Of a DNA stretch of 52,290 nt, positions 24,394 to 40,624 are shown in pieces. The notes under the pieces were generated by a model. The model was not told the origin of the DNA, made no database searches, and saw only the letters and a program-made list of their open reading frames with translations. The position numbers were made by a program, and so were the translations under genes. How positions within the stretch are numbered: the stretch's first letter is position 1; each line of letters opens with the position of its first letter. The stretch spans positions 1 through 52,290 of the forward strand of contig NZ_JAMXOD010000018.1 of NCBI RefSeq assembly GCF_024721305.1, in the 5' to 3' direction. Origin of the DNA: Aequitasia blattaphilus. GTDB lineage: Bacteria > Bacillota > Clostridia > Lachnospirales > Lachnospiraceae.

Positions 24394-25272
24394 ATGCATA
24401 AATATTTTAAAGCAATTGGGTTTGAGGATGTCAAATCCAAGCAAGAAGAAGATATAATAATTGAAGATGTAAAATATGATTATACTCATCATGAATTGGT
24501 GGGGATTGATGAAGTATGGGATTTCTGTGAGTTTCAAAAAGAGTATGGCCCTGGAATCGGTGTCTCTGTTTGTGGTTACATGAATGAGTCTGAGTACTTC
24601 GAAAAGGAATATGAATATCCTTTTTTTCTGGGAACAGGTATTACCTCATATTCTGAGGTTCTGGTAGAAAAAAGGATTGATCGAAACGATTATGTTGGAA
24701 TCTGTGAAGATTTAAATGTGGGGGTAAGCCTTGTTTTTAAACTCCAGAATACATTAGAGTTATTAAGAGAAAAGCAGAAGAAAAAACAGGAAGTGAAATA
24801 CCGTTCGGTAACTCTTTCCGGACTCTGTAATGCAGGAACGATTCTTTTTCCAATTATGAAAAGCGAAGCACAGAAAAAGCAGATTAATGAAGAAAAAAAG
24901 AATCGTATGATGCTTATAAATGAAGCGAAAAGTGGAGACCAAAGAGCAATTGAAAGCCTGACGTTGGATGATATTGATACGTATTCCCAGGTATCAAGAC
25001 GAATCATACATGAGGATGTTTTTAGTATCGTAGATAGTTATATTATGCCTTTTGGAATTGAAAGTGATATTTATTCAATACTAGGGGAAATAAAGCAACT
25101 GACAAAGGTGGAGAACGAATTGTCAAAAGAGGAGATTTATCTTTTAAGCCTGGAAGTAAATGATCTGAAATTTGATGTTTGTGTTCCTGTTTCTTCTATT
25201 ATTGGAGAACCAGAGGTTGGAAGACGTTTTAAGGGAAATGTTTGGCTGCAAGGGTATATACATTTCCGTTAA
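24394..25272 (+). CDS. DUF3881-like protein of unknown function
   Basis: A 292-residue soluble protein that begins MHKYFKAIGFEDVKS and has a central conserved-looking GPGIGVSVCGYMNESEYF. A Lys/Gln/Glu-rich helix lies near 128-175. I recognise it as resembling the DUF3881 family of Lachnospiraceae, from memory only. No catalytic motif stands out. It begins 11 bases after serS with no terminator between, so it is the last gene of that operon. Confidence 0.65.
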   Translation: MHKYFKAIGFEDVKSKQEEDIIIEDVKYDYTHHELVGIDEVWDFCEFQKEYGPGIGVSVCGYMNESEYFEKEYEYPFFLGTGITSYSEVLVEKRIDRNDYVGICEDLNVGVSLVFKLQNTLELLREKQKKKQEVKYRSVTLSGLCNAGTILFPIMKSEAQKKQINEEKKNRMMLINEAKSGDQRAIESLTLDDIDTYSQVSRRIIHEDVFSIVDSYIMPFGIESDIYSILGEIKQLTKVENELSKEEIYLLSLEVNDLKFDVCVPVSSIIGEPEVGRRFKGNVWLQGYIHFR

Positions 25273-25284: not shown

Positions 25285-25313
25285 TTTACAAAATCATAAT
25301 AATAAAGTATAAT
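25285..25313 (+). promoter_or_regulatory. Promoter of the original tRNA-Arg(CCU) locus
   Basis: TTTACA (25285-25290), a 17-base spacer and a perfect TATAAT (25308-25313) precede the truncated tRNA-Arg half. A hairpin (about 25317-25348, 11 bp with two wobble pairs) lies between promoter and tRNA. After integration this promoter would read through the half tRNA and arm into the complete tRNA-Arg at 25469, which has no clear promoter of its own. Confidence 0.7.
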
Positions 25314-25355: not shown

Positions 25356-25394
25356 GTCTCTATAGTTAAACGGATATAATACGCCCCTCCTAAG
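25356..25394 (+). pseudogene. Truncated tRNA-Arg(CCU), 5' half (a)
   Basis: These 39 nt form the acceptor strand GTCTCTA, the D-arm and the anticodon stem-loop of a tRNA-Arg(CCU), ending exactly at cctcctaag. No matching 3' half follows. It is probably the original chromosomal tRNA gene, split at the anticodon loop by integration of a mobile element. Its lost 3' half is not in the window. Confidence 0.85.
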
Positions 25395-25508
25395 AAAGTG
25401 TTAAAACATAACCCTAGGGGAAAAAAGAAAGTGTTAGCAAGTAAAAATAAATATAGATTTTTTCAGATGTCGCTATAGCTCAGCTGGATAGAGCGACCGC
25501 CTCCTAAG
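25391..25508 (+). repeat. 118-bp direct repeat, copy 1
   Basis: This stretch is identical, base for base, to 36263-36380. It runs from taag in the first tRNA half, through the 74-bp arm, to the cctcctaag of the complete tRNA-Arg. The two copies bound a segment of 10.87 kb. The left boundary is the 4-base taag shared with the core, as expected for recombination within the anticodon loop. Confidence 0.95.
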
Positions 25509-25545
25509 CGGTAGGTCGGAGGTTCAAATCCTCTTAGCGACGCCA
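25469..25545 (+). tRNA. tRNA-Arg (anticodon CCU), complete copy (b)
   Basis: A 77-nt cloverleaf: acceptor GTCGCTA/TAGCGAC, D-stem GCTC/GAGC, anticodon stem ACCGC/GCGGT with loop CTCCTAA, T-arm GGAGG TTCAAAT CCTCT, discriminator G and an encoded CCA. It reads AGG codons. It replaces the split tRNA at 25356 and was probably brought in by the element. A strong terminator follows 7 bases later. Confidence 0.96.
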
Positions 25546-25552
25546 AAAACTC

Positions 25553-25590
25553 CGCCGAAAGTGTTGTAAAATCAACGTTTTCGGCGTTTT
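25553..25590 (+). terminator. Terminator of tRNA-Arg (b)
   Basis: Arms 25553-25566 and 25573-25586 form a 14-bp stem with two wobble pairs and a 6-base loop, followed by TTTT. Confidence 0.9.
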
Positions 25591-25686
25591 CTATTTTCAA
25601 AGACAAATTGCAATATATGGTGAGCATTGGGCGGTGAGGATGACCGGAAAGAAATAGAACTATTCATTGTAAGCAAGAATTAGCTT

Positions 25687-25776
25687 GCTAATGATTAGCA
25701 GGATTTTTCGGGTTTTTGCTAATGAAAATGGCTTTCCTGCTAATTTGCGAAAAAATGACGCTAAAAACCTTGCTAA
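25687..25776 (+). repeat. GCTAA motif array, copy A
   Basis: Five forward GCTAA motifs start at 25687, 25718, 25739, 25760 and 25772, spaced 31, 21, 21 and 12 bases, with one inverted TTAGC at 25695. A second array with the same spacing follows the other complete tRNA-Arg (36798-36887). Spacing near two helical turns suggests a protein-binding array such as recombinase or excisionase arm sites, or iterons. That role is inferred. Confidence 0.7.
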
Positions 25777-25845
25777 TTCAAAAGGCGATTGTTACGAGTT
25801 CAAAGAGCTATTTTGTAGGCTTAAATAGTCTTTGGATTTACACAT

Positions 25846-25874
25846 TTGAATATACTATGACCTATTTATATAAT
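25846..25874 (+). promoter_or_regulatory. Promoter of the broken 57-aa gene
   Basis: TTGAAT (25846-25851), a 17-base spacer and TATAAT (25869-25874) lie 25 bases upstream of the ATG at 25900. The intact homologue at 37009 has an equivalent promoter. Confidence 0.65.
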
Positions 25875-25899
25875 GAAGCCAAGAAAGGACGGTGCTGTT

Positions 25900-25998
25900 A
25901 TGAGAGAGAAGTTAAGTCACCTATATGTGGATAGCCACGAAAGAACAATCTTATTACATAGCCTTGTGGAGTTAAAGAATCAGCTTATCCAGCAAAGG
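25900..25998 (+). pseudogene. Truncated copy of the 57-aa element protein gene
   Basis: The first 32 codons (MREKLSHLYVDSHERTILLH and on to NQLIQQ) match the intact gene at 37009-37182. At about 25995, after CAGCAA, similarity stops and the sequence turns into the end of the PTS regulator gene on the other strand. This marks the left junction of the PTS island. Confidence 0.85.
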
Positions 25999-27933
25999 TT
26001 TCTTTTTATTAGGATTAAAGTTAGCACTTAACATGATTCTTCGTAGTAAGGAGTCTGCTTGTTTCACCACCTGTGTGTCAAAGTTGAGAGGGATGCTACA
26101 AATCACCCCATTGATAATCGTTTTTCCGTTGCACACAAATGGCTGCTTAAAGCGATAAACTTGGATGCTCCACTTGTTGTCAGGCGGAAGGAACGAACAG
26201 AACACAGGCATAATACTATCTGAAGAATTTGTATCTGCAGGATACACCGGAAGGTATTCATGGTACATCTCTAAAAGCCCTTTTTCATGGGGCGAACGAT
26301 CAGTTTTCGTTATCGCCCATTGGACAAATTCTTTGGAATTTTTGCACGGTAAATCAAGTTCTTCAACGTGTTGCACTTCACTTAACATTGTTTCTGTAGA
26401 AATATGAGGTAATATAACCTGATTTCGAATATCATAAAGCTCTTTCCAACTAAGAAAATATGAAAGTTCCATAACTGGAAGAATATCCTGCTTTGGAAGT
26501 AATTCAATCGGCTCCGAGGTGATAATACAATCATATTTACGCAGATCCATATGATTCAACTCATAAGGGGTACAATGATCAATACTGTCAATATAATTCT
26601 CGTGCTGAGACTTGATCTTATAACTGATCGAGCGGGCGTAATGAAGGTTGTGCGGACCAACACAAAGCATCCGCAATTTTTTTCGATTGCTGGGTATCAC
26701 CATCACCGTATTGTAAAACAACAGGGTGAAATTAATCAGCATATACTGATCTGCTGGATAACCAGAGATCTTTTCAAGCTCCATTAATGTTTCGCAAGCA
26801 AGCTGTCTTGAAGCGGGAATCAGTGTTGCATATTTATATGCGGACCCACCATACTCAAATTCTGTAATCTGTAATTCTTTGCGTATCAGAAATTGAAAAA
26901 TCAGCTTAGTAAGGCAATGGGAAAATTGAGAATCTCCGGAGAAAACAATGGATAATTGACTCCGGAAAAATGTTTGAAGCTGATCATGATAAGAAAGTGC
27001 CCTTTGGTATAGTTGTCCATAATCGGTAAGAAGATGGCTGGGTGTATGATAAAAATCTGCATTCGCCAGTATCATCATAGCAAAGAATAAAATCTCATCT
27101 CCCTTGACCACTTCCGGGATATGAGGGCATACCGTATTTAAAATCTGACTAGATGCATAGTAAGCAGGCGTCTTATGCAACTGTTTTCCCGAAGCCAAAG
27201 TCTCGTTTATGGATATATAATTTTTTTCCTCGATGCGCTGTTTCATAATAAAGGCTAAAATTGCAAGCCGTTCAAGTGCTTGCTCACTGCAGCGAAGATC
27301 CATCTTCGTAAAAGTCTGAACCATTAGGTGATAACAATTTTTTATCTCATCATGAGGAATACCATAACGCGTATACCCATCATCTAAAAAAACAATGGGA
27401 ACAATGGCATGGGAATAAGGCTTACAGAAATCCACCATACATTGTCGTATAGTAGATTCTTCACCTCGAATCATCATACCGTGATGTGGCTTCGTTTCAA
27501 GTTCCATGTTGTATCGTTTAATAATTTTCCGCACTTCTTTTAACTCTTGATTAATTGAACTTCTGGTAAGCCACAGTGCATTTGCAATTTCTTCCGATTT
27601 CACATAATCTCCGGATAACAGCAGAATTCGTATTACATCACCTGTTCGTTCGGAAAAATCATTTTCATGGTCAAAAGCATAACAATACCTAAGAATAAGC
27701 TGGCTTTTTATATAATGTAATTTATGCTCGTCTTCCCCAAAGCAAAAAAGTCCATTGCCTCTTCGATTTTCAAGCCTTAAATCAAATACCTTAATTTCTT
27801 TATTGATTGTTTCCATATCTGAAGTCAAAGTACGAGTGGATATGTTCACATTATAAGCAAGAGTTTCCGGAGCAATCCCCGGATTGCATACAATTTCTTT
27901 TAAAATAAGTGACTGGCGCTTGTTTAATATCAT
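25972..27933 (-). CDS. PTS-linked transcriptional regulator (BglG/Mga/LicR-like), chimeric C-terminus
   Basis: A 653-residue regulator with an N-terminal helix-turn-helix (about 1-60), a second DNA-binding domain of Mga type (about 75-150, including EEIANALWLTRSSINQEL), and a middle helical region that may hold PRD-like phosphorylation domains. A later segment (MLCVGPHNLHYARSISYKI) resembles an EIIB-like fold. Start is ATG 27933 after AAGGAG. The last residues, PLLDKLIL, are encoded by antisense sequence of the broken 57-aa gene, so the native end is lost or altered. It is divergent from the PTS operon and probably activates it in response to sugar flux. Confidence 0.75.
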   Translation of the reverse strand: MILNKRQSLILKEIVCNPGIAPETLAYNVNISTRTLTSDMETINKEIKVFDLRLENRRGNGLFCFGEDEHKLHYIKSQLILRYCYAFDHENDFSERTGDVIRILLLSGDYVKSEEIANALWLTRSSINQELKEVRKIIKRYNMELETKPHHGMMIRGEESTIRQCMVDFCKPYSHAIVPIVFLDDGYTRYGIPHDEIKNCYHLMVQTFTKMDLRCSEQALERLAILAFIMKQRIEEKNYISINETLASGKQLHKTPAYYASSQILNTVCPHIPEVVKGDEILFFAMMILANADFYHTPSHLLTDYGQLYQRALSYHDQLQTFFRSQLSIVFSGDSQFSHCLTKLIFQFLIRKELQITEFEYGGSAYKYATLIPASRQLACETLMELEKISGYPADQYMLINFTLLFYNTVMVIPSNRKKLRMLCVGPHNLHYARSISYKIKSQHENYIDSIDHCTPYELNHMDLRKYDCIITSEPIELLPKQDILPVMELSYFLSWKELYDIRNQVILPHISTETMLSEVQHVEELDLPCKNSKEFVQWAITKTDRSPHEKGLLEMYHEYLPVYPADTNSSDSIMPVFCSFLPPDNKWSIQVYRFKQPFVCNGKTIINGVICSIPLNFDTQVVKQADSLLRRIMLSANFNPNKKKPLLDKLIL

Positions 27934-28064
27934 TGTTATCTCCTTCCCTCTATAATATCTATTATACATGATTACCATATTCTTTCTATAAAAATATTGT
28001 TTCGTAGGAAATTCTTCGTTGAATCAATGAAAAAAGCAACGTGGAAAAAATTATTTTATGCATA

Positions 28065-28070
28065 TATACT
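28065..28070 (+). promoter_or_regulatory. Candidate -10 box of the PTS operon
   Basis: TATACT (28065-28070), preceded by ATA, lies 49 bases upstream of the EIIC start, with no good -35 box. That is consistent with a promoter that needs an activator such as the divergent regulator. The 185-bp gap 27934-28118 must hold both promoters. A site with the core AAGCGCTT (28082-28089) only weakly resembles a catabolite-repression element. Confidence 0.35.
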
Positions 28071-28118
28071 AAGACACAACACAAGCGCTTATGAAAAAAG
28101 AGAGTGAGGTAAAAATTT

Positions 28119-28898
28119 ATGTTACAAGCATTACTTATTGCGTTATGGGCGGGAATATGTTCCCTTGACGATGTTGGTCCCCAAATGATTCGTCGTCCTT
28201 TGCTTACCGGAACGGTAACAGGTCTTATTATGGGCGATTTGGCACAAGGATTAACTATTGGTGCAAGTCTTGAACTTATGTGGATGGGTATCGGAAATGT
28301 GGGGGCTTATTCCGCACCGGATCTGGTGACTGGAGCCATTATTGGAACAGCTCTAGGAATTTCATCAGGAGGCGGAGTGGCAACGGGAATCGCACTGGCT
28401 GTCCCGGTGGCTCTTTTAGCACAACAACTATTAGTTTTATGTCGCACATTAAATGTTGCCTTTGTACCTTGGGCACAGAAAACTGCCGATAAAGGTGATT
28501 TTGACGGAATTATGAAAATCATTCCTGTTTCGGCACTTATGTACTTTCTTGCTCGTGCGGTTCCTTGCTTTATCGCAGTGTACTTCGGAAGTGATTTAGT
28601 TTCTTCATTGGTAGATGCTATGCCCACAGCATTGATTGAAGGTCTGGGCGTTGCTTCTAAAATTGTTCCGGCAATTGGTATTGCTCTGCTTCTTATGATG
28701 ATGCTTAAGAATTGGGTAGGATGGGTATTTCTGCTTCTTGGATTCACCTTGTCAACCTACTTGGAATTATCCATTATGCCAATTGCAATTATTTCACTTG
28801 CGTTTGCGGTTCTTTATGTGATGGTTTGTGAAAAGAACGCACAACCCACGGTGGCCATTTCAGAACAATCAGATACAGAGGAGGAGTATGATCTATGA
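28119..28898 (+). CDS. PTS mannose/sorbose-family EIIC permease
   Basis: A 259-residue membrane component of a mannose-family sugar phosphotransferase system. The signature near the N-terminus is LWAGICSLDDVGPQMIRRPL, and GASLELMWMGIGNVGAYSAPD is the conserved family block. About seven membrane segments are predicted. It forms the sugar channel with EIID, whose gene overlaps by 4 bases. Sugar specificity cannot be read directly; the GH4 enzyme in the operon points to a disaccharide or glucoside. Confidence 0.93.
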   Translation: MLQALLIALWAGICSLDDVGPQMIRRPLLTGTVTGLIMGDLAQGLTIGASLELMWMGIGNVGAYSAPDLVTGAIIGTALGISSGGGVATGIALAVPVALLAQQLLVLCRTLNVAFVPWAQKTADKGDFDGIMKIIPVSALMYFLARAVPCFIAVYFGSDLVSSLVDAMPTALIEGLGVASKIVPAIGIALLLMMMLKNWVGWVFLLLGFTLSTYLELSIMPIAIISLAFAVLYVMVCEKNAQPTVAISEQSDTEEEYDL

Positions 28899-29737
28899 AT
28901 GAAGAGAGAACGATCGCCGTGGCAGATGCAAGCACGGAAATCACTAAAAAAGATTTAAACAAAATGTTTTGGAGGTTGCAGCTTATGCAACTTACTACTA
29001 ATTTTCAAAATATGGCGGGAACAGCGTTCTGTAATATGATTAGCCCCGTGCTTAAAAAACTGTACGCCAATGCCGATATAGAAGCGAAAAGCCGCGCAAT
29101 GAAGCGTCATCTTGAGTTTTTTGTTTGTCAGGTAAACTGTACTGGCCTAATTCTCGGGGTAACGGCGGCAATGGAGAAAAACACCCAGGAAGCTGATAAG
29201 GATAGCATTTCATCCATCAAAACCGGTCTTATGGGACCGCTTGCGGGAATTGGAGATAGTTTGGTTAAGTTCACCCTAGTTCCTATCTTTGGAAGTATCG
29301 GTGCCGCTCTTGCGCTAGAAGGAAATGTCATGGGCCCAATTCTGATGTTTCTTTTATACAATATTTTTAATGTGGGATCTAAGTACTTTCTTATTCACTG
29401 GGGTTACGAAATGGGAACCGGCCTGCTAGAAGGCGATAAGACGCAGGTATTAATCCGGAGAATATCTAATGCGGCAAGTGTGGTGGGCTTAATGGCAGTA
29501 GGAAGCTTGATAGCCACCTCCGTAAAACTGCAGATAGGAAGCACTATTAATGTTGGAGAACAGTCAATTGCTATACAGGAAATGCTTGATATGATTATGC
29601 CAAATCTGCTTCCTCTTCTCACAACAGTAGGAATTCTTGCCATTGTTAAAAAATTAAACGGAAAACATACAGCGCTATTGATATTAGCAACCTTTGCTGT
29701 TGCGATTGTGCTATATATGTTGGGAATCTTAGTATAA
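28895..29737 (+). CDS. PTS mannose-family EIID component
   Basis: A 280-residue membrane component unique to mannose-family PTS. The signature regions are FQNMAGTAFCNMISPVLKKLY, FFVCQVNCTGLILGVTAAME and KTGLMGPLAGIGDSL, with hydrophobic helices in the C-terminal third. It overlaps EIIC by 4 bases (ATGA) and works with it as the translocator. Confidence 0.93.
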   Translation: MNEERTIAVADASTEITKKDLNKMFWRLQLMQLTTNFQNMAGTAFCNMISPVLKKLYANADIEAKSRAMKRHLEFFVCQVNCTGLILGVTAAMEKNTQEADKDSISSIKTGLMGPLAGIGDSLVKFTLVPIFGSIGAALALEGNVMGPILMFLLYNIFNVGSKYFLIHWGYEMGTGLLEGDKTQVLIRRISNAASVVGLMAVGSLIATSVKLQIGSTINVGEQSIAIQEMLDMIMPNLLPLLTTVGILAIVKKLNGKHTALLILATFAVAIVLYMLGILV

Positions 29738-29751
29738 AGGAGAAATCGTAT

Positions 29752-30189
29752 ATGAATGCAATTATATTAGCAAGTCATGGGCTATTTGCACAGGGAGCCC
29801 TTGGAGCGGTAGAAATGATTATTGGAAAACAAGACAATGTTCGGGTTCTTTCTTTGACCGAAGACAAAAATTTGGAAAGTTGCCTGCCGGAGATGAATCA
29901 AATGTGCGAAGAATTAGATACTTCATCCGGACTTTTGATTTTGGTAGATATGTATGGCGGAACGCCCTGTAATGTGAGCAGCAATATTTTGCTTCAAAAA
30001 CAAGATGAACTTGACATTGAATTACTATCCGGCTTTAGTCTGCCGATGCTATTGGAAGTGTTTATTGACCGGGAAAAAAGTCCGGCGCAGATCAAAGAAG
30101 ATATTATAAATAATTATTCGGATATGATGAAGGATTTAAAACTAATTTTAAATGAAAGTGGTGATGAAGATGGCAATCAACTTGGTTAG
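29752..30189 (+). CDS. PTS mannose-family EIIA component
   Basis: A 145-residue cytosolic phosphocarrier. The phosphorylated histidine is His9 in IILASHGLFA, and the conserved VDMYGGTPCNVS follows near 67. It takes phosphate from HPr and passes it to EIIB. The C-terminal tail overlaps the EIIB start by 20 bases. Confidence 0.92.
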   Translation: MNAIILASHGLFAQGALGAVEMIIGKQDNVRVLSLTEDKNLESCLPEMNQMCEELDTSSGLLILVDMYGGTPCNVSSNILLQKQDELDIELLSGFSLPMLLEVFIDREKSPAQIKEDIINNYSDMMKDLKLILNESGDEDGNQLG

Positions 30190-30655
30190 AATCGATGACA
30201 GATTAATTCATGGACAGGTGGCAACTACCTGGGTAAATGTAAAAAATATTGAGCAAATTTTATTGATTAGTGACAAATTAAAAAGTGACCCGGTGCAACA
30301 AAAGATAGTGATGATGACTGCACCGGCAGGAATCAAGGTATTAGTATTTGATGTGGAGAAGTTTATTTCGGTTTACCAGACGACCGAAATCAAAAAAAGA
30401 ACGATGCTGATTTTGACCAATAGTACCGATGTATTAAGGCTCCTTGAGGGCGGGGTAAAATTTGATCATTTAAATGTTGGTGGTATGCGTCTTCAAGGAG
30501 ATCGGGTACAGTATACCAAAGCATTATCAGCAACTCAAGAGGAAAAAGAGGCCTTTTTAAAAATTGCGGATATGGGTGTTGATATTGAAGTGCAGATGGT
30601 ACCAAATGATCCTCCTGTAAAGATAGAACAAATTTTTACTGGAGGAGGTAAGTGA
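30170..30655 (+). CDS. PTS mannose/fructose/sorbose-family EIIB component
   Basis: A 161-residue cytosolic phosphotransferase subunit. The active histidine is His14 in RIDDRLIHGQV, and the later block is FDHLNVGGM. I choose ATG 30170, which gives the standard MAINLVRIDD start; the frame extends upstream to 30152. It overlaps EIIA and is followed directly by the phosphatase gene. Confidence 0.92.
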   Translation: MAINLVRIDDRLIHGQVATTWVNVKNIEQILLISDKLKSDPVQQKIVMMTAPAGIKVLVFDVEKFISVYQTTEIKKRTMLILTNSTDVLRLLEGGVKFDHLNVGGMRLQGDRVQYTKALSATQEEKEAFLKIADMGVDIEVQMVPNDPPVKIEQIFTGGGK

Positions 30656-30656
30656 T

Positions 30657-31487
30657 TTGAGTGAACAGTCAACGCAAAGAAAAAGACTGCCAATTGATGG
30701 CACACACAATATAAGGGATATTGGTGGATATATAGGAAAAGGTGGAAGAAAAGTTAAAATGGGGCTTTTGTATCGAGGCGATCAGCTTTCTAAAGTGACC
30801 GATCAAGGGATTGAGGAATTTAAGAAGCTTAATATTAATACGATTATTGACCTACGTTCCCCTCCTGAGATAAAAAAATCTCCGAATCAATACTGTGGAG
30901 AACAAAAGACTATTCACTGTGACCCTTCTGCGGAGACAGCGGAACTTGCTGCAAGCTTTCAAGTAAGCGCACAAGATGAAGATCGAATGTTGGTAGAAAA
31001 AATCAAACAGCGAGTTGAACAAAGTGACAATGGTGAGAGTATGTATGCTCAGTATCGAAAGTTTGCGTCTCACCCTAAATGCATTGATGCATTTAAAAGG
31101 CTCATGCTGGAAGTGAGCAAGGAAGATTCTGCACCCCTCTTTTTCCATTGTCGAGGCGGAAAGGACCGAACGGGATTTGCAGCGATGCTAATTCTTGGCA
31201 CTTTGGGTGTTTCCGATGAAGATATTATTAGAGATTACTTGATTACTAAGGAAAATCGGGCACAGAGAACTCAGGAAAAAATGGAAAGCTACCGTCAATA
31301 TACGGATGATCAAGCCGTCCTTACTTACTTAGAATCTTTGCTGGATACAGCACCGGATTTTATCGACGCTTCCCTTAAGGAGCTTAAATCAAACTACAAT
31401 TCAGTGGAGCAATATGTAAAAGAGGTCCTTGACTTGGATGAGAAAGCGATTAAGCGGATACAAGATATTTATTTAGAAGAAAGCTAG
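30657..31487 (+). CDS. CX5R protein-tyrosine/phospho-sugar phosphatase-like protein
   Basis: A 276-residue member of the tyrosine phosphatase family of bacterial IphP/SIW14-like type. The P-loop is H164-C165-RGGKD-R171-TG, with Cys165 as nucleophile and Arg171 as phosphate binder. The N-terminal NIRDIGGYIGKGGRKVK and RGDQLS blocks are typical of this group. Start is TTG 30657 after GGAGG. Its place inside the PTS operon suggests it acts on a phosphorylated sugar or a PTS protein, but the substrate is unknown. Confidence 0.8.
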   Translation: MSEQSTQRKRLPIDGTHNIRDIGGYIGKGGRKVKMGLLYRGDQLSKVTDQGIEEFKKLNINTIIDLRSPPEIKKSPNQYCGEQKTIHCDPSAETAELAASFQVSAQDEDRMLVEKIKQRVEQSDNGESMYAQYRKFASHPKCIDAFKRLMLEVSKEDSAPLFFHCRGGKDRTGFAAMLILGTLGVSDEDIIRDYLITKENRAQRTQEKMESYRQYTDDQAVLTYLESLLDTAPDFIDASLKELKSNYNSVEQYVKEVLDLDEKAIKRIQDIYLEES

Positions 31488-31498
31488 AGGAAGAAAAG

Positions 31499-32836
31499 AT
31501 GAAAGAATATGCTATTTGTATTGTCGGGGGAGGTAGTCGGTATACGCCAGATATGCTAGCTATGTTATGCAATCAAAAAGAACGTTTTCCCCTGAGAAAG
31601 ATTGTACTATATGACAATGAAAATGAACGCCAAGATGTGGTGGGAGCCTATGCTGAAATCCTATTTAAAGAGTATTATCCCGAACTAAAAGAACTCGTCT
31701 ATACCACCGATCCAGATACGGCATTTTCAGACATTGATTTTGCTTTAATGCAGATTCGTGCAGGACGACTTAATATGAGAGAGCAGGATGAAAAGATAGC
31801 CATTAAGCACGGCTGTCTGGGGCAAGAAACCTGCGGTGCTGGGGGTTTTGCCTATGGTATGCGGAGCATTCCGGCTGTTGTCGAGATTATTAAGCAAATT
31901 AGAGAAAAATCACCAGAGTGCTGGATTTTAAATTATTCTAATCCTGCGGCAATCGTTGCGGAAGCAACCAATCGGATCTATTCGGATGATAAGAGGATTA
32001 TCAATATCTGTGATATGCCCATCGCAATTATGGACATGTATGCAGCTGTGTTAGGAAAGAAGAGAAAAGATTTGGAGCCCAAATATTTTGGTTTAAATCA
32101 TTTTGGATGGTTTACTAATATTTACGACAGGGAGACGGGAGAAGATTATCTTCCACGGTTAAAAGAAATCCTGAAAACTCCAGTAGATGTACAGACGGAA
32201 CCATTATTCCAGGAACCTTCATGGAAAGCGACATTTAAATTTATGAGTACCATGATTCAAGATTATGATGAGTATCTGCCCAATACTTATCTTCAATATT
32301 ATCTCTATCCCAGGAAGATGTTTGAAAAGCAAAATTCAGACTATACTAGAGCAAACGAAGTAATGGATGGAAATGAAAAAGAAACCTATGAGCGGATGGA
32401 GACAATTATTGCACTTGGGAAAATAAAGGGTACTGAATTCGCAATTACTGAAGATGTAGGGTGCCATGCAGAGTATATTGTTGATTTGGCCACGGCGCTT
32501 GCCAATAATACTAAAGAAGTTTTTCTTTTAATGACAGAAAATAAGGGTATTATAGAAAATCTGGACCGACATATGATGGTAGAGGTTCCTTGTCGAGTAG
32601 GCAGCAGTGGAGTAGAGCCATTAGTGGTGGGTACAGTACCTACTTTCTATAAGGGTTTGATTGAGCAACAATATGCTTATGAGAAGCTAACCGTGGATGC
32701 CTATTTAGAAGGCAGCAAGAAAAAAGCAATGCAGGCTCTAGTGCTTAATCGAACCGTTGTAAACACAGACACGGCGATTGCACTACTGGAAGATTTAATT
32801 AAGGCAAATAAAGAATACTGGAGAGAACTAAAATAA
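31499..32836 (+). CDS. GH4 family 6-phospho-glucosidase, alpha type likely
   Basis: A 445-residue NAD- and metal-dependent glycosidase. The NAD-binding start is IVGGGSRYTPDM, the family block is GQETCGAGGFAYGMRSIP, and metal-binding residues are Cys171 and the His in GLNHFGWF (His201). The tetrapeptide CDMP at 171-174 is the signature associated with 6-phospho-alpha-glucosidases, whereas beta-type enzymes have CN(V/I)P. It would split the phosphorylated disaccharide delivered by the PTS into glucose 6-phosphate and a second sugar. Confidence 0.88.
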   Translation: MKEYAICIVGGGSRYTPDMLAMLCNQKERFPLRKIVLYDNENERQDVVGAYAEILFKEYYPELKELVYTTDPDTAFSDIDFALMQIRAGRLNMREQDEKIAIKHGCLGQETCGAGGFAYGMRSIPAVVEIIKQIREKSPECWILNYSNPAAIVAEATNRIYSDDKRIINICDMPIAIMDMYAAVLGKKRKDLEPKYFGLNHFGWFTNIYDRETGEDYLPRLKEILKTPVDVQTEPLFQEPSWKATFKFMSTMIQDYDEYLPNTYLQYYLYPRKMFEKQNSDYTRANEVMDGNEKETYERMETIIALGKIKGTEFAITEDVGCHAEYIVDLATALANNTKEVFLLMTENKGIIENLDRHMMVEVPCRVGSSGVEPLVVGTVPTFYKGLIEQQYAYEKLTVDAYLEGSKKKAMQALVLNRTVVNTDTAIALLEDLIKANKEYWRELK

Positions 32837-32849
32837 GAAGGGATAAAAA

Positions 32850-33107
32850 ATGAAGAATTTCAACTATGTGGTTAAGGATACTTTGGGATTACACGCAAGG
32901 CCGGCAGGATTATTGGTAAAAGAAGCCGGAAAGTTTGAATCCACAATTATGGTCCACACAAAAGGAAAACAAGCGAATGCAAAAAAATTACTAGCACTTA
33001 TGTCGCTAGCCGTCAAACAAGAAGATGAAGTAGCGGTTACTATTGAAGGTGCAGACGAAGACGTGGCGGCACAAGCCATGGAGGTGTTCTTTCAGACAAA
33101 TCTGTAG
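32850..33107 (+). CDS. HPr-like phosphocarrier with Lys at position 46
   Basis: An 85-residue HPr. The EI-phosphorylated histidine His15 is intact in GLHARPAG. The segment that normally contains the regulatory Ser46 reads QANAKKLLALMSL, with Lys46 in its place. It should carry phosphate from EI to EIIA but cannot be phosphorylated by HPr kinase at that site. It sits between the GH4 gene and ptsI, so it is dedicated to this operon. Confidence 0.9.
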   Translation: MKNFNYVVKDTLGLHARPAGLLVKEAGKFESTIMVHTKGKQANAKKLLALMSLAVKQEDEVAVTIEGADEDVAAQAMEVFFQTNL

Positions 33108-33118
33108 GAGGTTGATCC

Positions 33119-34732
33119 ATGGAATATTACAGTGGTAAAAGCATTAACAATAAAATTGCAATCGGAAAATTGTTTTATTATAAAAAGCAAGAAGCAAAAG
33201 TAAAGCGAGAACGAATCGAAGATGTGGAAAATGAAGTAAAGCGCTTTGACGAGGCACGCGAGTTAGCTAAGGAACAGGTTCTTGACTTATATGAAAAGGC
33301 TAAGTCTGAAGTCGGGGAGGCAGAAGCCGCTATCTTTGAGGTCCATATGATGATGCTGGATGATGAAGATTATGGGGACTCCGTATGTAATATGATTGAA
33401 TCACAGATGGTATGTGCCCCTTATGCCATCGCCTCTACCGGTGAAAATTTTGCTAATATGTTTGCTGAGATGGAGGATGAATACATGCAGGCTCGCTCTG
33501 CAGATATTAAAGATATTTCAGAGCGAATGGTAAGTATTTTACTTGGAAATAACGATACTGGTGCCGTGTTCGATGAACCTGTAATTTTAGTTGCGGATGA
33601 CTTGGCACCTAGTGAGACAATTCAGCTAGATAAGGATAAATTATTAGGTTTTGTAACCCGACACGGGTCCATGAATTCTCATACTGCAATTCTTGCCAGA
33701 ACGATGAATATCCCCGCCTTGATCCAGGTGGATATTAAGCCTGAATGGCATGGGAAGGAAGCTGTGCTTGATGGTTACAGTGCGCTACTTACCATTGAAC
33801 CTGATGAATCCGCTCTATTTAAGGCCCGTGAACAGGTCGCACAAGATAACAAAAAAGAAGAACTTTTAAAGGAACTAAAGGGAAAAGAAACAGTTACAAA
33901 AAGTGGGCAGAAGGTAAAACTTTATGCCAATATCGGTAATGTTGCTGACACGGCAGCAGCTCTAATGAATGATGCCGAAGGAATTGGATTATTCCGAAGT
34001 GAGTTTTTGTATCTGGAATCCGCTGATTTTCCCACCGAGAATGAGCAGTTTCTTGCATATAAAATTGTGGCAGAAAACATGGCTGGAAAGCCTGTGATTA
34101 TCCGAACACTAGATATTGGCGCAGATAAACAGGTCGATTATTTTAACTTGAAAAAGGAAGAAAATCCAGCACTTGGGTATCGTGCCATAAGGATCTGCCT
34201 TAATCAGACAGATATTTTCCGCACTCAACTTCGGGCAATTCTTCGAGCCAGTGCGTTCGGAAATATTGCCATCATGTTTCCTATGATTATCTCCTTATCT
34301 GAGGTACAAAGAGCAAAGGAGATTTTGGCGGAGGTAAAGTCTGAGTTAAAGGAGCAGAACATTTCTTACAAAGATGTAGAAGTTGGTGTGATGATTGAAA
34401 CACCTGCCTCAGTTATGATTAGTGACGAGCTGGCGAAAGAAGTCGATTTCTTTAGCATTGGAACCAACGATTTAACGCAGTATACTTTAGCTGCTGACAG
34501 GCAGAATCCGGCATTAGATGATATGATTGATATTCATCATCCGGCTATTCTTAAGATGATTGAAATAACCGTTAAAAATGCTCATGATAATGATATATGG
34601 GTGGGTATCTGTGGAGAGCTTGGTGCGGATTTGGAACTCACGAAATTCTTTTTGGATTTAGGTGTGGATGAGCTTTCTGTTTCATCGTCCAGCATATTAC
34701 CTGTACGAGAGAAAATACGAGAACAGGAATAA
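33119..34732 (+). CDS. ptsI: PTS enzyme I (phosphoenolpyruvate-protein phosphotransferase)
   Basis: A 537-residue enzyme that moves phosphate from phosphoenolpyruvate to HPr. The phosphorylated histidine is His188 in MNSHTAILART. The PEP-binding barrel shows GIGLFRSEFLYL, RTLDIGADKQ and the late IGTNDLTQYTLAADR. At 537 residues it is slightly shorter than the usual ~570, ending just after LPVREKIREQE. The stop lies exactly at the right junction with the helicase fragment, so a few C-terminal residues may have been lost. Confidence 0.92.
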   Translation: MEYYSGKSINNKIAIGKLFYYKKQEAKVKRERIEDVENEVKRFDEARELAKEQVLDLYEKAKSEVGEAEAAIFEVHMMMLDDEDYGDSVCNMIESQMVCAPYAIASTGENFANMFAEMEDEYMQARSADIKDISERMVSILLGNNDTGAVFDEPVILVADDLAPSETIQLDKDKLLGFVTRHGSMNSHTAILARTMNIPALIQVDIKPEWHGKEAVLDGYSALLTIEPDESALFKAREQVAQDNKKEELLKELKGKETVTKSGQKVKLYANIGNVADTAAALMNDAEGIGLFRSEFLYLESADFPTENEQFLAYKIVAENMAGKPVIIRTLDIGADKQVDYFNLKKEENPALGYRAIRICLNQTDIFRTQLRAILRASAFGNIAIMFPMIISLSEVQRAKEILAEVKSELKEQNISYKDVEVGVMIETPASVMISDELAKEVDFFSIGTNDLTQYTLAADRQNPALDDMIDIHHPAILKMIEITVKNAHDNDIWVGICGELGADLELTKFFLDLGVDELSVSSSSILPVREKIREQE

Positions 34733-34734
34733 TT

Positions 34735-35082
34735 GTCGAATTTCAAAAGCTATATCATTATCTTGAAGGGTATGTTCCTCTTTCTACGCAACATAAAATT
34801 AAAGGATTAGAATTTGATAATGTATTGATTCTTTTGCATAATGGTGGATGGAATAATTATAATTTTGACTATTTGCTTAATATGGAAATATATGAGACAT
34901 TGACTCCAGCAAAGAAAAAAAGTTACGACAATATATTACATAGGACAAAAAAGCTGTTTTATGTTTGTTGTACACGAGCTAGAGAAAATCTAGTTGTTTT
35001 TTATCCGGAACCGACGCAAGAAGTTATTTCTGGAGCCCAAGAGTTGTTTGGGAAAGAAAATTGTGTTAATTTAGATGATTGA
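34735..35082 (+). pseudogene. C-terminal fragment of a UvrD-like helicase
   Basis: About 115 codons remain of a superfamily 1 helicase, including STQHKIKGLEFDNVLIL (motif V) and LFYVCCTRAREN (motif VI). The ATP-binding N-terminal part is missing. The frame opens directly after the enzyme I stop, so the PTS island joined or replaced sequence within this gene. This type of helicase occurs as cargo of conjugative elements. Confidence 0.85.
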
Positions 35083-35100
35083 TAATGTATAGATTTACAT

Positions 35101-35135
35101 AGCCGAGTGGTTTTCAAAATGAAAACTGCCCGGCT
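35101..35135 (+). terminator. Hairpin upstream of the DUF3991-like gene
   Basis: AGCCGAGTGGTTTTCA and TGAAAACTGCCCGGCT pair into a long stem with a short loop. A near copy with better pairing and a T-run occurs at 40928-40967, where a group II intron follows it. It ends transcription of the preceding gene or acts as a leader for the next. Confidence 0.55.
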
Positions 35136-35164
35136 ACTTTTACGTCTGGAGGTGATGTGATTGA

Positions 35165-35644
35165 ATGAGAAGTAACAAACCCTATGTTCAACTTGACCCC
35201 GCAGCCATTGAGCAAGCCCGGCAAATGGATTTGCTGTCCTACTTGCAACGATATGAGCCTGGTAATCTAAAACGAGTGGCTGGCAATGTCTATTGCACTA
35301 AAGAACATGACAGCTTAAAGATTTCCAATGGCAAATGGTACTGGTGGTCAAGAGGTTTTGGCGGTATTTCTGCCCTTGATTATCTCATTAAGGTTAAGGA
35401 ATACGGATTTGTGGAAGCGGTTCAAGTTATTGCAGGTGTTGCAGTCGGGTGGACACCACCACCCCCTATCATTCCAAGGGATGAGCCAAAAGTCTTACTC
35501 CTACCGCCTAAAAATGAAACTAGCAATAATGTAATAAAGTATCTTTCGGGTCGTGGTATTGACTATGAACTCATACAGGAATGTATTGCCGATGGTACGA
35601 TATTTGAGAGTGCTGATCGTTATCACAATGAGATTATAATTTAG
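35165..35644 (+). pseudogene. Truncated DUF3991/TOPRIM-type mobile-element protein
   Basis: 159 residues with the N-terminal zinc-binding-like domain of element primases (VYCTKEHDSLKISNGKWYWW and the conserved GGISALDYL). It then continues through a proline-rich linker into the start of the second domain (VIKYLSGRGIDYELIQECI) and stops after YHNEIII, where full-length proteins continue into TOPRIM. A GGAGGTG lies just upstream. It is a typical gene of Firmicute conjugative elements. Confidence 0.75.
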
Positions 35645-36262
35645 TGAAAAGATTTGAATGGGTTTGAAAAACATAAGGCGGGGTGATTTTCTCCCTTTCG
35701 CATGAGTAATCAGAGAAATTCCAAATCGGCAACCGCAAAAGAGAAGAAATTTTACGAAAGGTTCTGACAAACGGAAAGCCTGTTCAAACGCAAAAAAGCC
35801 CGATGGGATATAATCCAATCGGGTGTGTGGGTAAATATTTCCTATTGTGTAGTGTATGTGGTTACATTGCGGAGCATAATATGCCGCAGATGAGAATAGG
35901 CTTTTTTTGATAGTGTAGTCTTCATTTCTTTATATCGAATGACAAAGTTTAACACGGCGGCAACCTCCTTGAGTAACCGCCATGTCTCTAAAAATGGGCG
36001 AATTTAATACGCCCACCGTATGTTCGATTTTTCAAAAGAAAAAACGGCGGCTTTGATTTTCATTTCAAAACCGCCGTTTGGCTATGTGATTATCATTTGG
36101 GCGCACCATTACCTCTGCCAAATGACGGCTTTTTTTATATGCCGTCATGGGCAAAAACAATATCGTTCTATAATTGTCGGAAGTATCGGATTATTCAATG
36201 CTTTTGATATAATCTTCAATATCATTTACAATGCAAATGACAAGTTCTGCTATTTCACTTGT
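35645..36262. other. Hairpin-rich element end without clear long genes
   Basis: This 618-bp stretch holds several strong inverted repeats: near 35787-35822 (cccgat against atcggg), near 35995-36017 (gggcg against cgccc), near 36040-36080 (acggcgg against ccgccgt), and near 36121-36147 (atgacggc against gccgtcat). On the minus strand there is a small ORF (35842-35955) and an open frame without a start that ends at 36191. It is the right end of element I, just before the second 118-bp repeat. Confidence 0.6.
35842..35955 (-). CDS. Possible 37-residue protein of unknown function
   Basis: A GTG at 35955 follows AAGGAGG (35970-35964) by 8 bases. It opens a 37-residue frame (MLNFVIRYKEMKTTLSKKAY and onward) ending at TAG 35842. 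The protein is basic, with no recognised domain. The excellent ribosome-binding site is the main support; length alone would not be convincing. Confidence 0.4.
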   Translation of the reverse strand: MLNFVIRYKEMKTTLSKKAYSHLRHIMLRNVTTYTTQ

Positions 36263-36380
36263 TAAGAAAGTGTTAAAACATAACCCTAGGGGAAAAAAGA
36301 AAGTGTTAGCAAGTAAAAATAAATATAGATTTTTTCAGATGTCGCTATAGCTCAGCTGGATAGAGCGACCGCCTCCTAAG
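36263..36380 (+). repeat. 118-bp direct repeat, copy 2
   Basis: Identical to 25391-25508. It begins at taag after an element end (cttgttaag) rather than in a tRNA half. It runs through the 74-bp arm and a second truncated tRNA-Arg half to cctcctaag. Confidence 0.95.
36341..36380 (+). pseudogene. Truncated tRNA-Arg(CCU), 5' half (c)
   Basis: These 40 nt are identical to the 5' part of the complete tRNA at 25469 and stop at cctcctaag. The following 77-bp arm (36381-36457) leads to the next half. The tRNA body from the variable arm on is missing. Confidence 0.9.
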
Positions 36381-36457
36381 AAGAAAGTGTTAAAACATAA
36401 CCCTGGAGGAAAAAGTGTTACGTATAGCAGTTCAACTTAATTAGTGTTTTTATAAAA

Positions 36458-36496
36458 GTTTCCTTAGTTCAACGGATAGAATAAGGGCCTCCTAAG
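36458..36496 (+). pseudogene. Truncated tRNA-Arg(CCU), 5' half (d)
   Basis: A third 5' half, 39 nt from GTTTCCT to cctcctaag. It differs in sequence from halves (a) and (c), so it came from another lineage of tRNA-Arg gene. A 64-bp arm (36497-36560) follows, leading to the complete tRNA at 36561. Confidence 0.85.
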
Positions 36497-36560
36497 GCTG
36501 TGTTATAACATAACCCTGAGGGAAAAAGGGAAATGGTTACAAGTAAAAATTTTAATAGAT

Positions 36561-36636
36561 GTCTCCGTAGCTCAGTGGATAGAGCATTCGCCTCCTAAGC
36601 GAAGGGTCGGACGTTCAAATCGTCTCGGGGACGCCA
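36561..36636 (+). tRNA. tRNA-Arg (anticodon CCU), complete copy (e)
   Basis: A 76-nt cloverleaf: acceptor GTCTCCG/CGGGGAC, D-stem GCTC/GAGC, anticodon stem TTCGC/GCGAA with loop CTCCTAA, T-arm GGACG TTCAAAT CGTCT, discriminator G and an encoded CCA. It differs from copy (b) but reads the same AGG codon. It belongs to the second element. Confidence 0.95.
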
Positions 36637-36644
36637 AAAACAAT

Positions 36645-36682
36645 GCCGCAAACCTGCATAAATACAGGCTTTGCGGCTTTTA
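36645..36682 (+). terminator. Terminator of tRNA-Arg (e)
   Basis: GCCGCAAACCTG (36645-36656) pairs with CAGG-C-TTTGCGGC (36665-36677), with one bulged base, followed by TTTTAT. Confidence 0.85.
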
Positions 36683-36797
36683 TAATTTCCCGAGAGAAAT
36701 TGAACTCGTAGTAAACGGCGATTAGCAAGAGCAGTTTCTGCTAATCAAATTGGAAGAAGAAAAATTGAACTTCTGTCGTTTCGTCACCGATTAGCTT

Positions 36798-36887
36798 GCT
36801 AATGATTAGCAAGAATTTTCGGGTTTTTGCTAATGAAAACGGCTCTCCTGCTAATTTGCGGAAAAAAGGTGCTAAAAATCCTGCTAA
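36798..36887 (+). repeat. GCTAA motif array, copy B
   Basis: GCTAA motifs start at 36798, 36829, 36850, 36871 and 36883, giving the same 31-21-21-12 spacing as copy A. The surrounding bases are similar but not identical. A further inverted pair, ATTAGCA and TGCTAAT (36720-36745), lies upstream. Confidence 0.7.
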
Positions 36888-36956
36888 TTGAAAAGGCGAT
36901 TGTTTCTTGTTCAACTACTCGTTATCGGGTCTTATATAATCCTCATTTTTTCATAT

Positions 36957-36985
36957 TTGAGTGTCCTGCCCTCTGCGTATATACT
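36957..36985 (+). promoter_or_regulatory. Promoter of the 57-aa gene
   Basis: TTGAGT (36957-36962), a 17-base spacer and TATACT (36980-36985) lie 23 bases upstream of the ATG at 37009. The GCTAA array ends about 70 bases before it and could regulate it. Confidence 0.65.
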
Positions 36986-37008
36986 GTAAATATAAGGAGG
37001 TTGCGACT

Positions 37009-37182
37009 ATGAGAGAGAAAAAGAGCCATTTGTATTTGGATAGCCACGAAAGACGACTTTTGCTACATAGCCTTGTGGAGCTGAAAAATCAGCTCATACA
37101 GCAAGGCAGATATACGGACTGTGTTGATGAACTTATCTTCAAGGTTACTACTGCTTCCGTTAAAAAGGTAAAAGTGATATAA
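37009..37182 (+). CDS. 57-residue element protein next to the left attachment site
   Basis: A small protein with MREKKSHLYLDSHERRLLLH, then HSLVELKNQLIQQGRYTD and a basic end (KKVKVI). AAGGAGG lies 8 bases upstream and a good promoter precedes it. A broken homologue occupies the same place after the other complete tRNA-Arg. Charge and helical look suggest a DNA-binding or excisionase-like role, but no domain is recognised. Confidence 0.75.
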   Translation: MREKKSHLYLDSHERRLLLHSLVELKNQLIQQGRYTDCVDELIFKVTTASVKKVKVI

Positions 37183-37223
37183 TGGTTTTGAGTAGATAAG
37201 ACGCAGTAGTGAGGAGGATATTT

Positions 37224-37709
37224 GTGGATAAAAGCCTAAATGATTATGTAGAAATTTATAAGGCCGAATTGGATAAAGGGGATATTCAAATCGCTTACGA
37301 GCAGTTATTAAAATATGTAATGGCATTGAAAGTTCATTTCCAAAAGGTACAGCCTGACAGCTACACTTTCGGGAATGTGTACCTCGGTTTTATGGACTAC
37401 ACATATTTCTATTTCTTCAATGATTTTCTGCGTAGTAAAAAATTGCGATTTGGAATTGTCTTAAACCACCCTAAAATGCAGTTTGAGCTTTGGCTATTAG
37501 GACAAAACGCAGAAGTGCAGAGCATTTATTGGGAATTGTTGAAAATAACAAAATGGAATGCAGGACGGACAGCAAAGCCAAAATACGCTGTTCTTGAAGC
37601 TGTTTTAATTGAAAATCCCGATTTTAATGACTTAGATGCTTTGTCAGATAAAATTGGAACAGCAGCACAAAGTATAATACAAGAAATTATGCCCTACCTC
37701 CAAGATTAA
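37224..37709 (+). CDS. DUF7000-like protein of unknown function
   Basis: A 161-residue soluble protein (VDKSLNDYVEIYKAELDKGD, then YTYFYFFNDFLRSKKLRFGI and FELWLLGQNAEVQ). I recall this type as DUF7000; the reaction is unknown. Start is GTG 37224, 5 to 6 bases after GAGGAGGA; the GTG at 37209 lies before that site. It is the first of the cargo genes. Confidence 0.55.
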   Translation: MDKSLNDYVEIYKAELDKGDIQIAYEQLLKYVMALKVHFQKVQPDSYTFGNVYLGFMDYTYFYFFNDFLRSKKLRFGIVLNHPKMQFELWLLGQNAEVQSIYWELLKITKWNAGRTAKPKYAVLEAVLIENPDFNDLDALSDKIGTAAQSIIQEIMPYLQD

Positions 37710-37717
37710 CTTTTGGT

Positions 37718-37748
37718 CATAAGTCTGACAACTTTGAAGTTGTGGAGG
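37718..37748 (+). repeat. 31-nt intergenic repeat, copy 1
   Basis: CATAAGT, a variable middle and TTTGAAGTTGTGGAGG. The same unit recurs at 38158-38188, and both include the ribosome-binding GGAGG of the following gene. The DUF3795 gene is thus flanked by direct repeats, like a cassette. Confidence 0.75.
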
Positions 37749-37756
37749 AGGTTGAA

Positions 37757-38152
37757 ATGAAAGCAGAGTTAATAGCCCCATGTGGAATGAATTGCCGTCT
37801 GTGTTATGGGTATATCCGTCCACGCAACCAATGTCCCGGCTGTAATGCTTCTGATGATAGCAAGCCGAAGTCATGTACAAACTGCAAAATTGTGGTTTGT
37901 GAAAAAAGGAACCAAAATGATTGGTTGACTTGTGCTGACTGCGATACTTACTGCCGACGTTTGAGAGACTTAGACAAGCGATATAGTTCTAAATACCACA
38001 TGAGCATGATTGAGAACCTTGCTACTATACGCAATCATGGCATGGATTTCTTCTTGGAACAGCAGTATAATAAATTTTGCTGTCCTGCGTGTGGTGAAAT
38101 AACCTGTGTACATAGAGTTGAATGTCCATCGTGCAAAAAACCGATATGGTAA
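37757..38152 (+). CDS. DUF3795 family cysteine-rich protein
   Basis: A 131-residue protein with many cysteines: APCGMNCRLCYGYI, NQCPGCNA, CTNCKIVVC, TCADCDTYC, and a C-terminal zinc-ribbon-like CCPACGEITC and CPSCKKP. This matches the DUF3795 pattern. Metal binding is likely; function unknown. Start is ATG 37757 after GGAGGAGG. Confidence 0.75.
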   Translation: MKAELIAPCGMNCRLCYGYIRPRNQCPGCNASDDSKPKSCTNCKIVVCEKRNQNDWLTCADCDTYCRRLRDLDKRYSSKYHMSMIENLATIRNHGMDFFLEQQYNKFCCPACGEITCVHRVECPSCKKPIW

Positions 38153-38157
38153 TTGAG

Positions 38158-38188
38158 CATAAGTTCAATAAATTTGAAGTTGTGGAGG
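38158..38188 (+). repeat. 31-nt intergenic repeat, copy 2
   Basis: The second copy of the CATAAGT...TTTGAAGTTGTGGAGG unit, 440 bp after the first. It lies 6 bases after the DUF3795 stop and carries the ribosome-binding site of the kinase-like gene. Confidence 0.75.
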
Positions 38189-38198
38189 TAAAATATAG

Positions 38199-38744: not shown

Positions 38745-38815
38745 ACAATTCCAGTTTGTATAACAGGAATTTATCAGAAAATGAGGAATAGTTGAAATGG
38801 AGGCGCTATAATAAC

Positions 38816-39139: not shown

Positions 39140-39217
39140 GCAAGTCAAATTCCCGTTTATTGGGAAGTCGCAGAGAACGAAAAATCGGAAGTTTACAGCG
39201 AGGTGAAAGAGGATATT

Positions 39218-39912: not shown

Positions 39913-39956
39913 ATAGTAGATTTGCCATTTCCTGTAATTGTAAAAAAACTTAAATG

Positions 39957-40037: not shown

Positions 40038-40074
40038 AACTAAAACACCTATAAGGTATAAATGGAGGTAATTT

Positions 40075-40569: not shown

Positions 40570-40624
40570 TAGTAGATTATTACAGTTATGTATTTTATAT
40601 CGCAAAGAAAAAATAGTAGTTAAG

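Follow-up and report, generated by a model that had tools for sequence, protein, structure and literature searches.

The 52,290-bp stretch of DNA analysed here (the window) is one whole contig, NZ_JAMXOD010000018.1, of the 3.2-Mb, 60-contig draft genome of Aequitasia blattaphilus, a member of the Lachnospiraceae and a congener of Ohessyouella blattaphilus. Our analysis makes it very probable that the window carries a pile of at least four elements of the integrative and conjugative (ICE) or integrative and mobilizable (IME) type at one tRNA-Arg(CCU) gene, each of which splits the resident tRNA and supplies a replacement that is the next target. An initial annotation of this DNA had proposed such splitting and replacing, and the proposal is borne out by a filled and empty pair of sites, by paired tRNA 3′ halves and by adjacent tyrosine integrases in relatives. 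The five tRNA features on which that annotation built are all present: ARAGORN finds complete tRNA-Arg(CCT) genes at 25469-25545 (T1) and 36561-36636 (T3), three 5′ halves (25356-25394, 36341-36380 and 36458-36496) terminate exactly at the 8-bp sequence CTCCTAAG, and the arms behind the halves measure 74, 77 and 64 bp, as annotated. The acceptor and anticodon-stem strands of the four tRNA 5′ parts in the window (GTCTCTA/CGCCC, GTCGCTA/ACCGC, GTTTCCT/AGGGC and GTCTCCG/TTCGC) are distinct, so these four tRNAs are not copies of one tRNA.

In the mechanism that we propose, a tyrosine integrase would recombine the 8-bp core CTCCTAAG of a circular element with the anticodon loop of the resident tRNA, leaving the tRNA 5′ half at the left end of the element and the 3′ half at its right end, and the broken tRNA would not be rebuilt. 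The element would bring a complete foreign tRNA-Arg(CCU), in the same orientation and separated from the left end of the element by a short arm (64-77 bp here), so that transcription from the host tRNA promoter could run across the dead half and reach the new gene. Since the replacement retains CTCCTAAG it would become the next target, and a later element could either split it (nested) or recombine at a neighbouring core (tandem). We infer the chemistry of recombination, the expression of the replacement and the need for it from the sequence.

A filled and an empty site, and tRNA halves that rejoin

The left end of the last element of the window (E4, which carries T3) is found again in the genus (three genomes searched, that of the window included), on contig NZ_JAMXOC010000019.1 of O. 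blattaphilus PAL227 (G001), where T3 is cut at CTCCTAAG by an insert of 49,333 bp. This insert has a new arm and a complete tRNA-Arg(CCT) at its near end, the T3 3′ half lies beyond its far end, and the 8-bp core CTCCTAAG flanks it on both sides. Across the left arm and the T3 5′ half, 110 of 112 alignment columns are equal between the window and O. blattaphilus; to the right, the first 107 bases after the core align without a difference, and 448 of 515 columns agree over ~500 bp. Just inside the new tRNA the insert encodes a tyrosine integrase, and it also carries VirD4-like and VirB4-like proteins, DndB and ParAB; the integrase together with the VirD4-/VirB4-like proteins makes it an ICE.

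The two parts of a split tRNA can be matched in other relatives as well. Ten genomes were searched for 5′ and 3′ halves, halves were paired in stretches from seven genomes besides that of the window, and matching halves rejoin into a tRNA-Arg(CCU) in seven genomes. When 5′ and 3′ halves of the same genome are combined, 10 of 14 combinations pair fully in the acceptor (7/7) and at no fewer than 4/5 positions of the anticodon stem; these are also the 10 joins that ARAGORN accepts, the other 4 being rejected. Combinations across genomes pass the same pairing test in 7 of 106 cases (Fisher p = 1.3e-7, with related elements not fully independent of one another). The spans between the paired halves are 11.0 kb in G061, 17.7 kb in G092, 29.8 kb in G029, 50.6 kb in G007, 93.8 kb in G037 and ~103 kb for the inner pair of G048. 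In this last genome the 5′ half h1 precedes h2, but on the 3′ side the order is reversed: the half that best fits the inner h2 comes first and the best match of the outer h1 last, as expected from nesting. A 3′ half compatible at 7/7 acceptor and 5/5 anticodon-stem pairs is also found in six of eight named genomes (C. asparagiforme, C. citroniae, H. hathewayi, E. ramulus, Angelakisella and Caproicibacter), lying on another contig in E. ramulus and Caproicibacter; no compatible 3′ half was found in the named genome CCNA10, and the first tRNA part of Dorea sp. 5-2 cannot be recognised as a half.

Conjugation genes, namely those of a type IV secretion system (T4SS), are present in two elements, the 49-kb element of G001 and the 29.8-kb element of G029. 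Both combine them with an integrase between attachment (att) sites, and the latter is thus a second ICE. The small element of G061 carries ABC-transporter genes as cargo. In the window, no conjugation genes were found in the first element (E1), and E4 is open-ended.

The site also occurs empty. The initial annotation had suggested comparing relatives for an intact gene matching the first half of the window, and a pattern search recovers a native-type tRNA-Arg(CCU), that is an empty attB, intact in 9 of 61 genomes. A DUF3881 gene stands beside five of these nine genes (1.5-kb flanks) and beside other occupied sites.

Integrases, replacement tRNAs and their arms

The arrangement of half tRNA, arm and tRNA was found in 30 of 398 genomes of the family (the window genome included) and in 0 with the reversed control, which places it far beyond chance; at these 30 loci ARAGORN finds the first tRNA broken in 35/35 junctions and the second intact in 25. 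A stricter pattern recovers at least 120 stretches in GTDB species genomes and one in IMG/VR. Among the matches listed (80 titles), those that name a group are all Bacillota and mostly Clostridia, with two Erysipelotrichaceae, a taxon spread that is a lower bound. In a phylum-wide sample only the window genome itself carries it (1/199), a frequency obtained with a stricter pattern than that of the family sample and not directly comparable with it. The 121 fetched loci contain 137 junctions; in 134 of them the first tRNA is rejected by ARAGORN, while the second passes in 86 and is itself broken or cut by the contig end in 48.

The initial annotation had suggested looking in other genomes for the halves and arms with an integrase nearby, and such loci exist. 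The 121 loci fetched by pattern (one of them viral) were searched with four query proteins, and 40 of them extend at least 2.5 kb past the last anticodon core. In 22 of these 40 a tyrosine integrase match starts just inside the element, 208-497 bp beyond the last tRNA's anticodon core, and all 22 point at the site; on the other side of the site there is no integrase match in any of the 82 loci with at least 3 kb there. In G061 and G092 the integrase is instead at the right end. Starting from the protein and not from the tRNA pattern, homologues of the G001 integrase were found in 9 genomes (116 relatives searched, E ≤ 1e-30). Of the ten integrase loci so obtained (1.5-kb flanks), four carry a complete CCT tRNA together with one to three halves and some of the others a 3′ half; in those four the complete tRNA has the same place and orientation.

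The replacement tRNAs are of another type than the native gene: when the distinct complete CCU tRNAs of the fetched loci are compared, CCA is encoded in 51 of 66 of the element type and in 0 of 10 of the native type. A comparison bearing on an origin of the element tRNAs from tRNA-Arg(UCU) had a single distinct UCU sequence to draw on. By pattern, 8 of 10 genomes have one complete CCU tRNA and no more, and every complete one in the 10 genomes stands behind a broken half, which bears indirectly on whether the replacement is needed for survival. The initial annotation had the host always keeping one working AGG-reading tRNA; the window departs from this, as it has two complete ones.

Greedy clustering sorts the 121 distinct arms into 57 clusters, which have in common a conserved AATTTNATANAT immediately before the replacement tRNA. 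Taking one arm per cluster, no common -35 element was found as part of a promoter of their own, only AATTTNATANAT, which is perhaps a leader processing signal, a -10 box or a protein site. The lack of a -35 leads us to prefer read-through from the host promoter as the way in which the replacement may be expressed. The arm range of 44-74 bp was set by the search pattern, and arms outside it occur in G048 (42 bp), in G027 (~130 bp) and in the window (77 bp). The arm at G027:C17:26720-26838 and similar ones open with a short stretch (CGGCAGNTNGTTCGANTCC) that resembles a tRNA 3′ half, perhaps a relic of an ancestral element that rebuilt the tRNA.

In the first stack of the window (T0 to T1, below), an 11/12 match to the promoter consensus stands before the first half and a terminator match right after T1, with none between. 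The promoter-like site (TTTACA-17-TATAAT, 25285..25313), a consensus match only, probably belongs to the native tRNA-Arg(CCU) gene; three promoter-like sites were found in the region, against 1.2 ± 0.9 in shuffles. The terminator-like hairpin directly after T1 (25553..25586) is likewise a consensus match, of which shuffles give 0.4 ± 0.6.

The window as a probable tandem and nested pile

Two elements that H. hathewayi WAL-18680 (Hungatella; G444) and G048 have in common bear on how elements stack. Element a (102.9 kb in G444 and 102.8 kb in G048, with a right flank identical across the 400 bases compared) adjoins element b in G444, where the tRNA of b is intact, and lies inside the tRNA of b in G048. 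Since this one pair occurs in both arrangements, tandem and nested, we read the window as a tandem of E1 and a related element E1′, followed by E3 and E4 in nested positions: E1 would have entered the native tRNA, E1′ would have joined E1 in tandem, E3 would have entered the tRNA of E1′ and E4 that of E3. At a further locus, L272, the native-type tRNA-Arg(CCU) occurs twice within ~360 bp, once split and once apparently intact.

The promoter-like and terminator-like sites, tRNA parts, arms, junction, elements and DUF3881 gene of the window are all given on the + strand. The site adjoins serS and a DUF3881 gene (24394..25272), which follows serS and recurs on the chromosome beside the native tRNA-Arg(CCU) site, tblastn recovering it at other loci too; the first half starts ~80 bp after it. 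This half (T0, 25356..25394), cut after CTCCTAAG, is the 5′ half of the native chromosomal gene, as both its native-type D arm (TAGTTAAACGGATATAA) and its DUF3881 neighbour are those of the intact native genes of relatives. E1 (25395..36262, 10.9 kb) begins with its 74-bp left arm (25395..25468), a type of arm also found in G061, G092 and others, and T1 (25469..25545), the replacement tRNA that it carries, encodes CCA and is fully paired in the acceptor (7/7) and anticodon stem (5/5). The left-end region of E1 can be aligned over 0.2-0.6 kb with E4 and with the elements of G061 and G092.

The second stack begins where the right end of E1 is joined to TAAG (36263..36266) and a left arm. Here 36263-36380 equals 25391-25508 at 100% identity (118 bp), an exact repeat that identifies a fourth left end, arm 1 again, from 36267 and makes the junction at 36263 a tandem one. 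The second copy of left arm 1 (36267..36340) is the left end of E1′ and is followed by the 5′ half of its T1 copy (36341..36380), cut at CTCCTAAG. Behind it come the 77-bp left arm of E3 (36381..36457), the 5′ half of T2 (36458..36496), which is the replacement tRNA of E3, has a native-like D arm and is again cut at CTCCTAAG, and the 64-bp left arm of E4 (36497..36560), with one mismatch to the T3-type element of O. blattaphilus. T3 (36561..36636), the replacement of E4, is the tRNA that the ICE splits in O. blattaphilus, and E4 itself (36497..52290) is open at the contig end, its right end not being reached. The minimum of four integrations in the initial annotation thus holds in that four left ends are counted; one of these arrivals, however, lies at the tandem junction at 36263, where no more than TAAG of the core is present, and so did not break up a complete tRNA.

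Several observations count against our account. None of the three 3′ halves that the initial annotation had predicted (d, c, a) was found in the 60-contig draft, the contig ending at 52290. The 3′ half of T0, searched by its expected acceptor strand in the window genome, was not found, and a looser 3′-half pattern gave in that genome only the two complete tRNAs and four chance-like matches (control 2). Relatives of the G001 integrase are absent from the window genome at E ≤ 1e-30 (other integrase families elsewhere in it were not sought) and tblastn with the integrases of four relatives gives no match in the window at E ≤ 1, so that E1-E4 look immobile or decayed now; among the 40 testable loci, 18 have no left-side integrase by the four queries. 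The second stack has no terminator match after T3, and its only promoter-like match on the + strand (36204-36232), weaker than that of the first stack, lies before it in the E1 right end, at a rate no higher than in shuffles. In G048 an intermediate 3′ half also passes with the outer h1 (7/7, 4/5), which makes its partner uncertain, and there are surplus or unmatched halves elsewhere (a second 5′ half in G007, a second, identical 3′ half in G092, the half of CCNA10 and a third half in Angelakisella). ARAGORN accepts the half plus arm as a tRNA in 3/137 junctions, so the arm may still rebuild the tRNA in a few elements. Lastly, the E1/E1′ junction retains only TAAG of the 8-bp core, which allows for deletion or mismatch-tolerant recombination there.

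Could the halves have arisen by local tandem duplication of one tRNA and decay, with no element boundaries? The exact 118-bp repeat and a 34-bp motif common to four arms (D2 and D4) fit such an origin, but we give it next to no credence: the four tRNA 5′ parts differ while every cut falls at the same anticodon-loop base, the matching 3′ halves of relatives lie 11-183 kb away with conjugation genes between the halves in two of them, and the filled and empty pair contradicts it. Duplication of one tRNA was accordingly rejected as a candidate, the halves being different tRNAs. We also hold it to be very improbable that these are classic tDNA islands, in which an attP fragment rebuilds the tRNA and the second, complete tRNA is ordinary cargo. 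Many arms do begin with CGGYAGNTNGTTCRANTCC, which resembles a tRNA 3′ half with its T arm, and the three accepted joins would suit this explanation; in five measured cases, however, the arm pairs with the 5′ half at only 3-5 of the 7 acceptor positions, ARAGORN rejects the joins in 134/137 and 35/35 junctions, and the four integrase loci found independently of the tRNA pattern have their complete tRNA in the same place and orientation. On the grounds of acceptor pairing and ARAGORN, we rejected the idea that an attP fragment restores the tRNA in most of the elements.

A milder alternative, to which we assign a real if smaller chance, is that the pile is mostly a decayed remnant and that homologous recombination or deletion between related elements, and not an integrase, produced the E1/E1′ repeat. 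It draws on the bare TAAG at the junction, on E1, where no integrase was found and whose right side holds short partial ORFs (open reading frames), and on the draft, where no 3′ halves were found. The repeat nevertheless starts exactly within the core, and tandem junctions with the full CTCCTAAG core exist in O. blattaphilus (C11:11554) and H. hathewayi. We retain successive integration, tandem for E1′ and nested for E3 and E4, as the reading of the window.

Apart from its left arm and T1, E1 contains an Mga regulator, a sugar operon of the phosphotransferase system (PTS) with a family 4 glycosidase (GH4), and remnants. The operon (28119-34732) is of the mannose/sorbose type and includes HPr (32850-33107), EI (33119-34732), a tyrosine phosphatase and the glycosidase; with the adjoining Mga-type regulator it is a self-contained sugar uptake set on a mobile element. 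E4 holds a DUF7000 gene, a P-loop protein, group II intron proteins, sortase and lysozyme-CHAP genes, and ars and thioredoxin genes. Two group II intron proteins stand in tandem at 41527-44752, the second broken into ORFs 43362-44237 and 44198-44752. An arsenic-type cluster (47465-52131) comprises an ArsR-type regulator, an ArsP-like permease, thioredoxins, a DsbD-like protein and an SBF-family transporter, and also has a low-molecular-weight phosphatase (ArsC-like) gene. Two small genes of E4 have a 36-bp repeat (81%) at their starts or just ahead of them (37713-37748 and 38153-38188).

Known systems and a proposed renewable docking site

Tycheposons, reportedly set out by Hackl et al. in 2023, are said to have a tRNA at one border, a tyrosine recombinase and cargo. 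In PMC10872708, through which we compared them, anticodon-loop splitting with a distinct replacement tRNA is not among the features described. The closest precedent is the tRNA-dependent lysogeny of actinophages (Guerrero-Bustamante & Hatfull, mBio 2024, PMC10865867), whose authors regard a wider use as plausible and cite a Lactobacillus prophage. As described there, it has in common with the present elements a tyrosine integrase, a short core in a tRNA gene (8-17 bp in their Table 2), a broken tRNA that is not rebuilt and an element that brings a complete tRNA of the same isotype. We find an 8-bp core, a tRNA that is not reconstituted and a complete same-isotype tRNA, with the tyrosine integrase in relatives. 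The carriers in PMC10865867 are phages, and in the cases described the tRNA has another position in their genome, either downstream of Int or in overlap with a gene, whereas here the carriers examined are of the ICE/IME type and the tRNA lies a short arm inside attL and is reused as target; a phage tRNA serving as the next attB, and nested piles, are not among the features described in that paper. A temperate phage as carrier is not what we see, with T4SS genes in the G001 and G029 elements and a single viral stretch (phage genes were not sought in the other elements).

The standard rule, as given for Islander (Hudson et al., PMC4383910) and in a review of archaeal recombinases (PMC8371274), is that the target tRNA is restored. 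Islander tDNA islands, as described there, resemble our elements in their tyrosine integrase, anticodon-loop subsite, tRNA fragment at one end and tandem arrays. In them attP restores the same tRNA and the fragment matches the gene, whereas here the tRNAs are different and the gene is replaced; an attP fragment restoring the disrupted tRNA is not what we found. Prophage-related islands of Sinorhizobium (PMC11476347) likewise substitute the host tRNA by one resembling that of unrelated bacteria, but these are phage-related, and a self-renewing target is not among the features described for them. In the open-licence PMC literature we found no description of replacement tRNAs in ICEs or IMEs of Clostridia or of their reuse as attachment site.

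The aspect that appears to be new is the second role of the spare tRNA, as attachment site for the next element. We think it rather likely that a large and mixed guild of ICEs and IMEs in the Clostridia uses one renewable docking site, at which each element brings a foreign tRNA-Arg(CCU), in most cases with CCA encoded, that serves both to rescue the host and to renew the site. If this is true, insertion capacity would never be exhausted, since the replacement re-creates the attachment site, and one tRNA site could host an open-ended series of mobile elements. Rescue would be independent of the host tRNA sequence, leaving the elements free to cross families, and the inner elements of a nested pile could travel within outer ones. 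On this reading, too, the AGG-reading tRNA of many gut bacteria would be a property of mobile elements. Our findings extend the 2024 phage concept of tRNA-dependent integration to ICEs and IMEs, widespread in gut-type Clostridia, and the succession of half tRNA, arm and complete tRNA offers a ready marker for mapping exact element ends, including nested ones that methods relying on matching fragments could misread. As an AGG-reading tRNA is supplied by mobile DNA in these genomes, a cell that loses an element should either regain its former tRNA in exact form or have none, which would make the tRNA outcome of element loss a direct test of element addiction.

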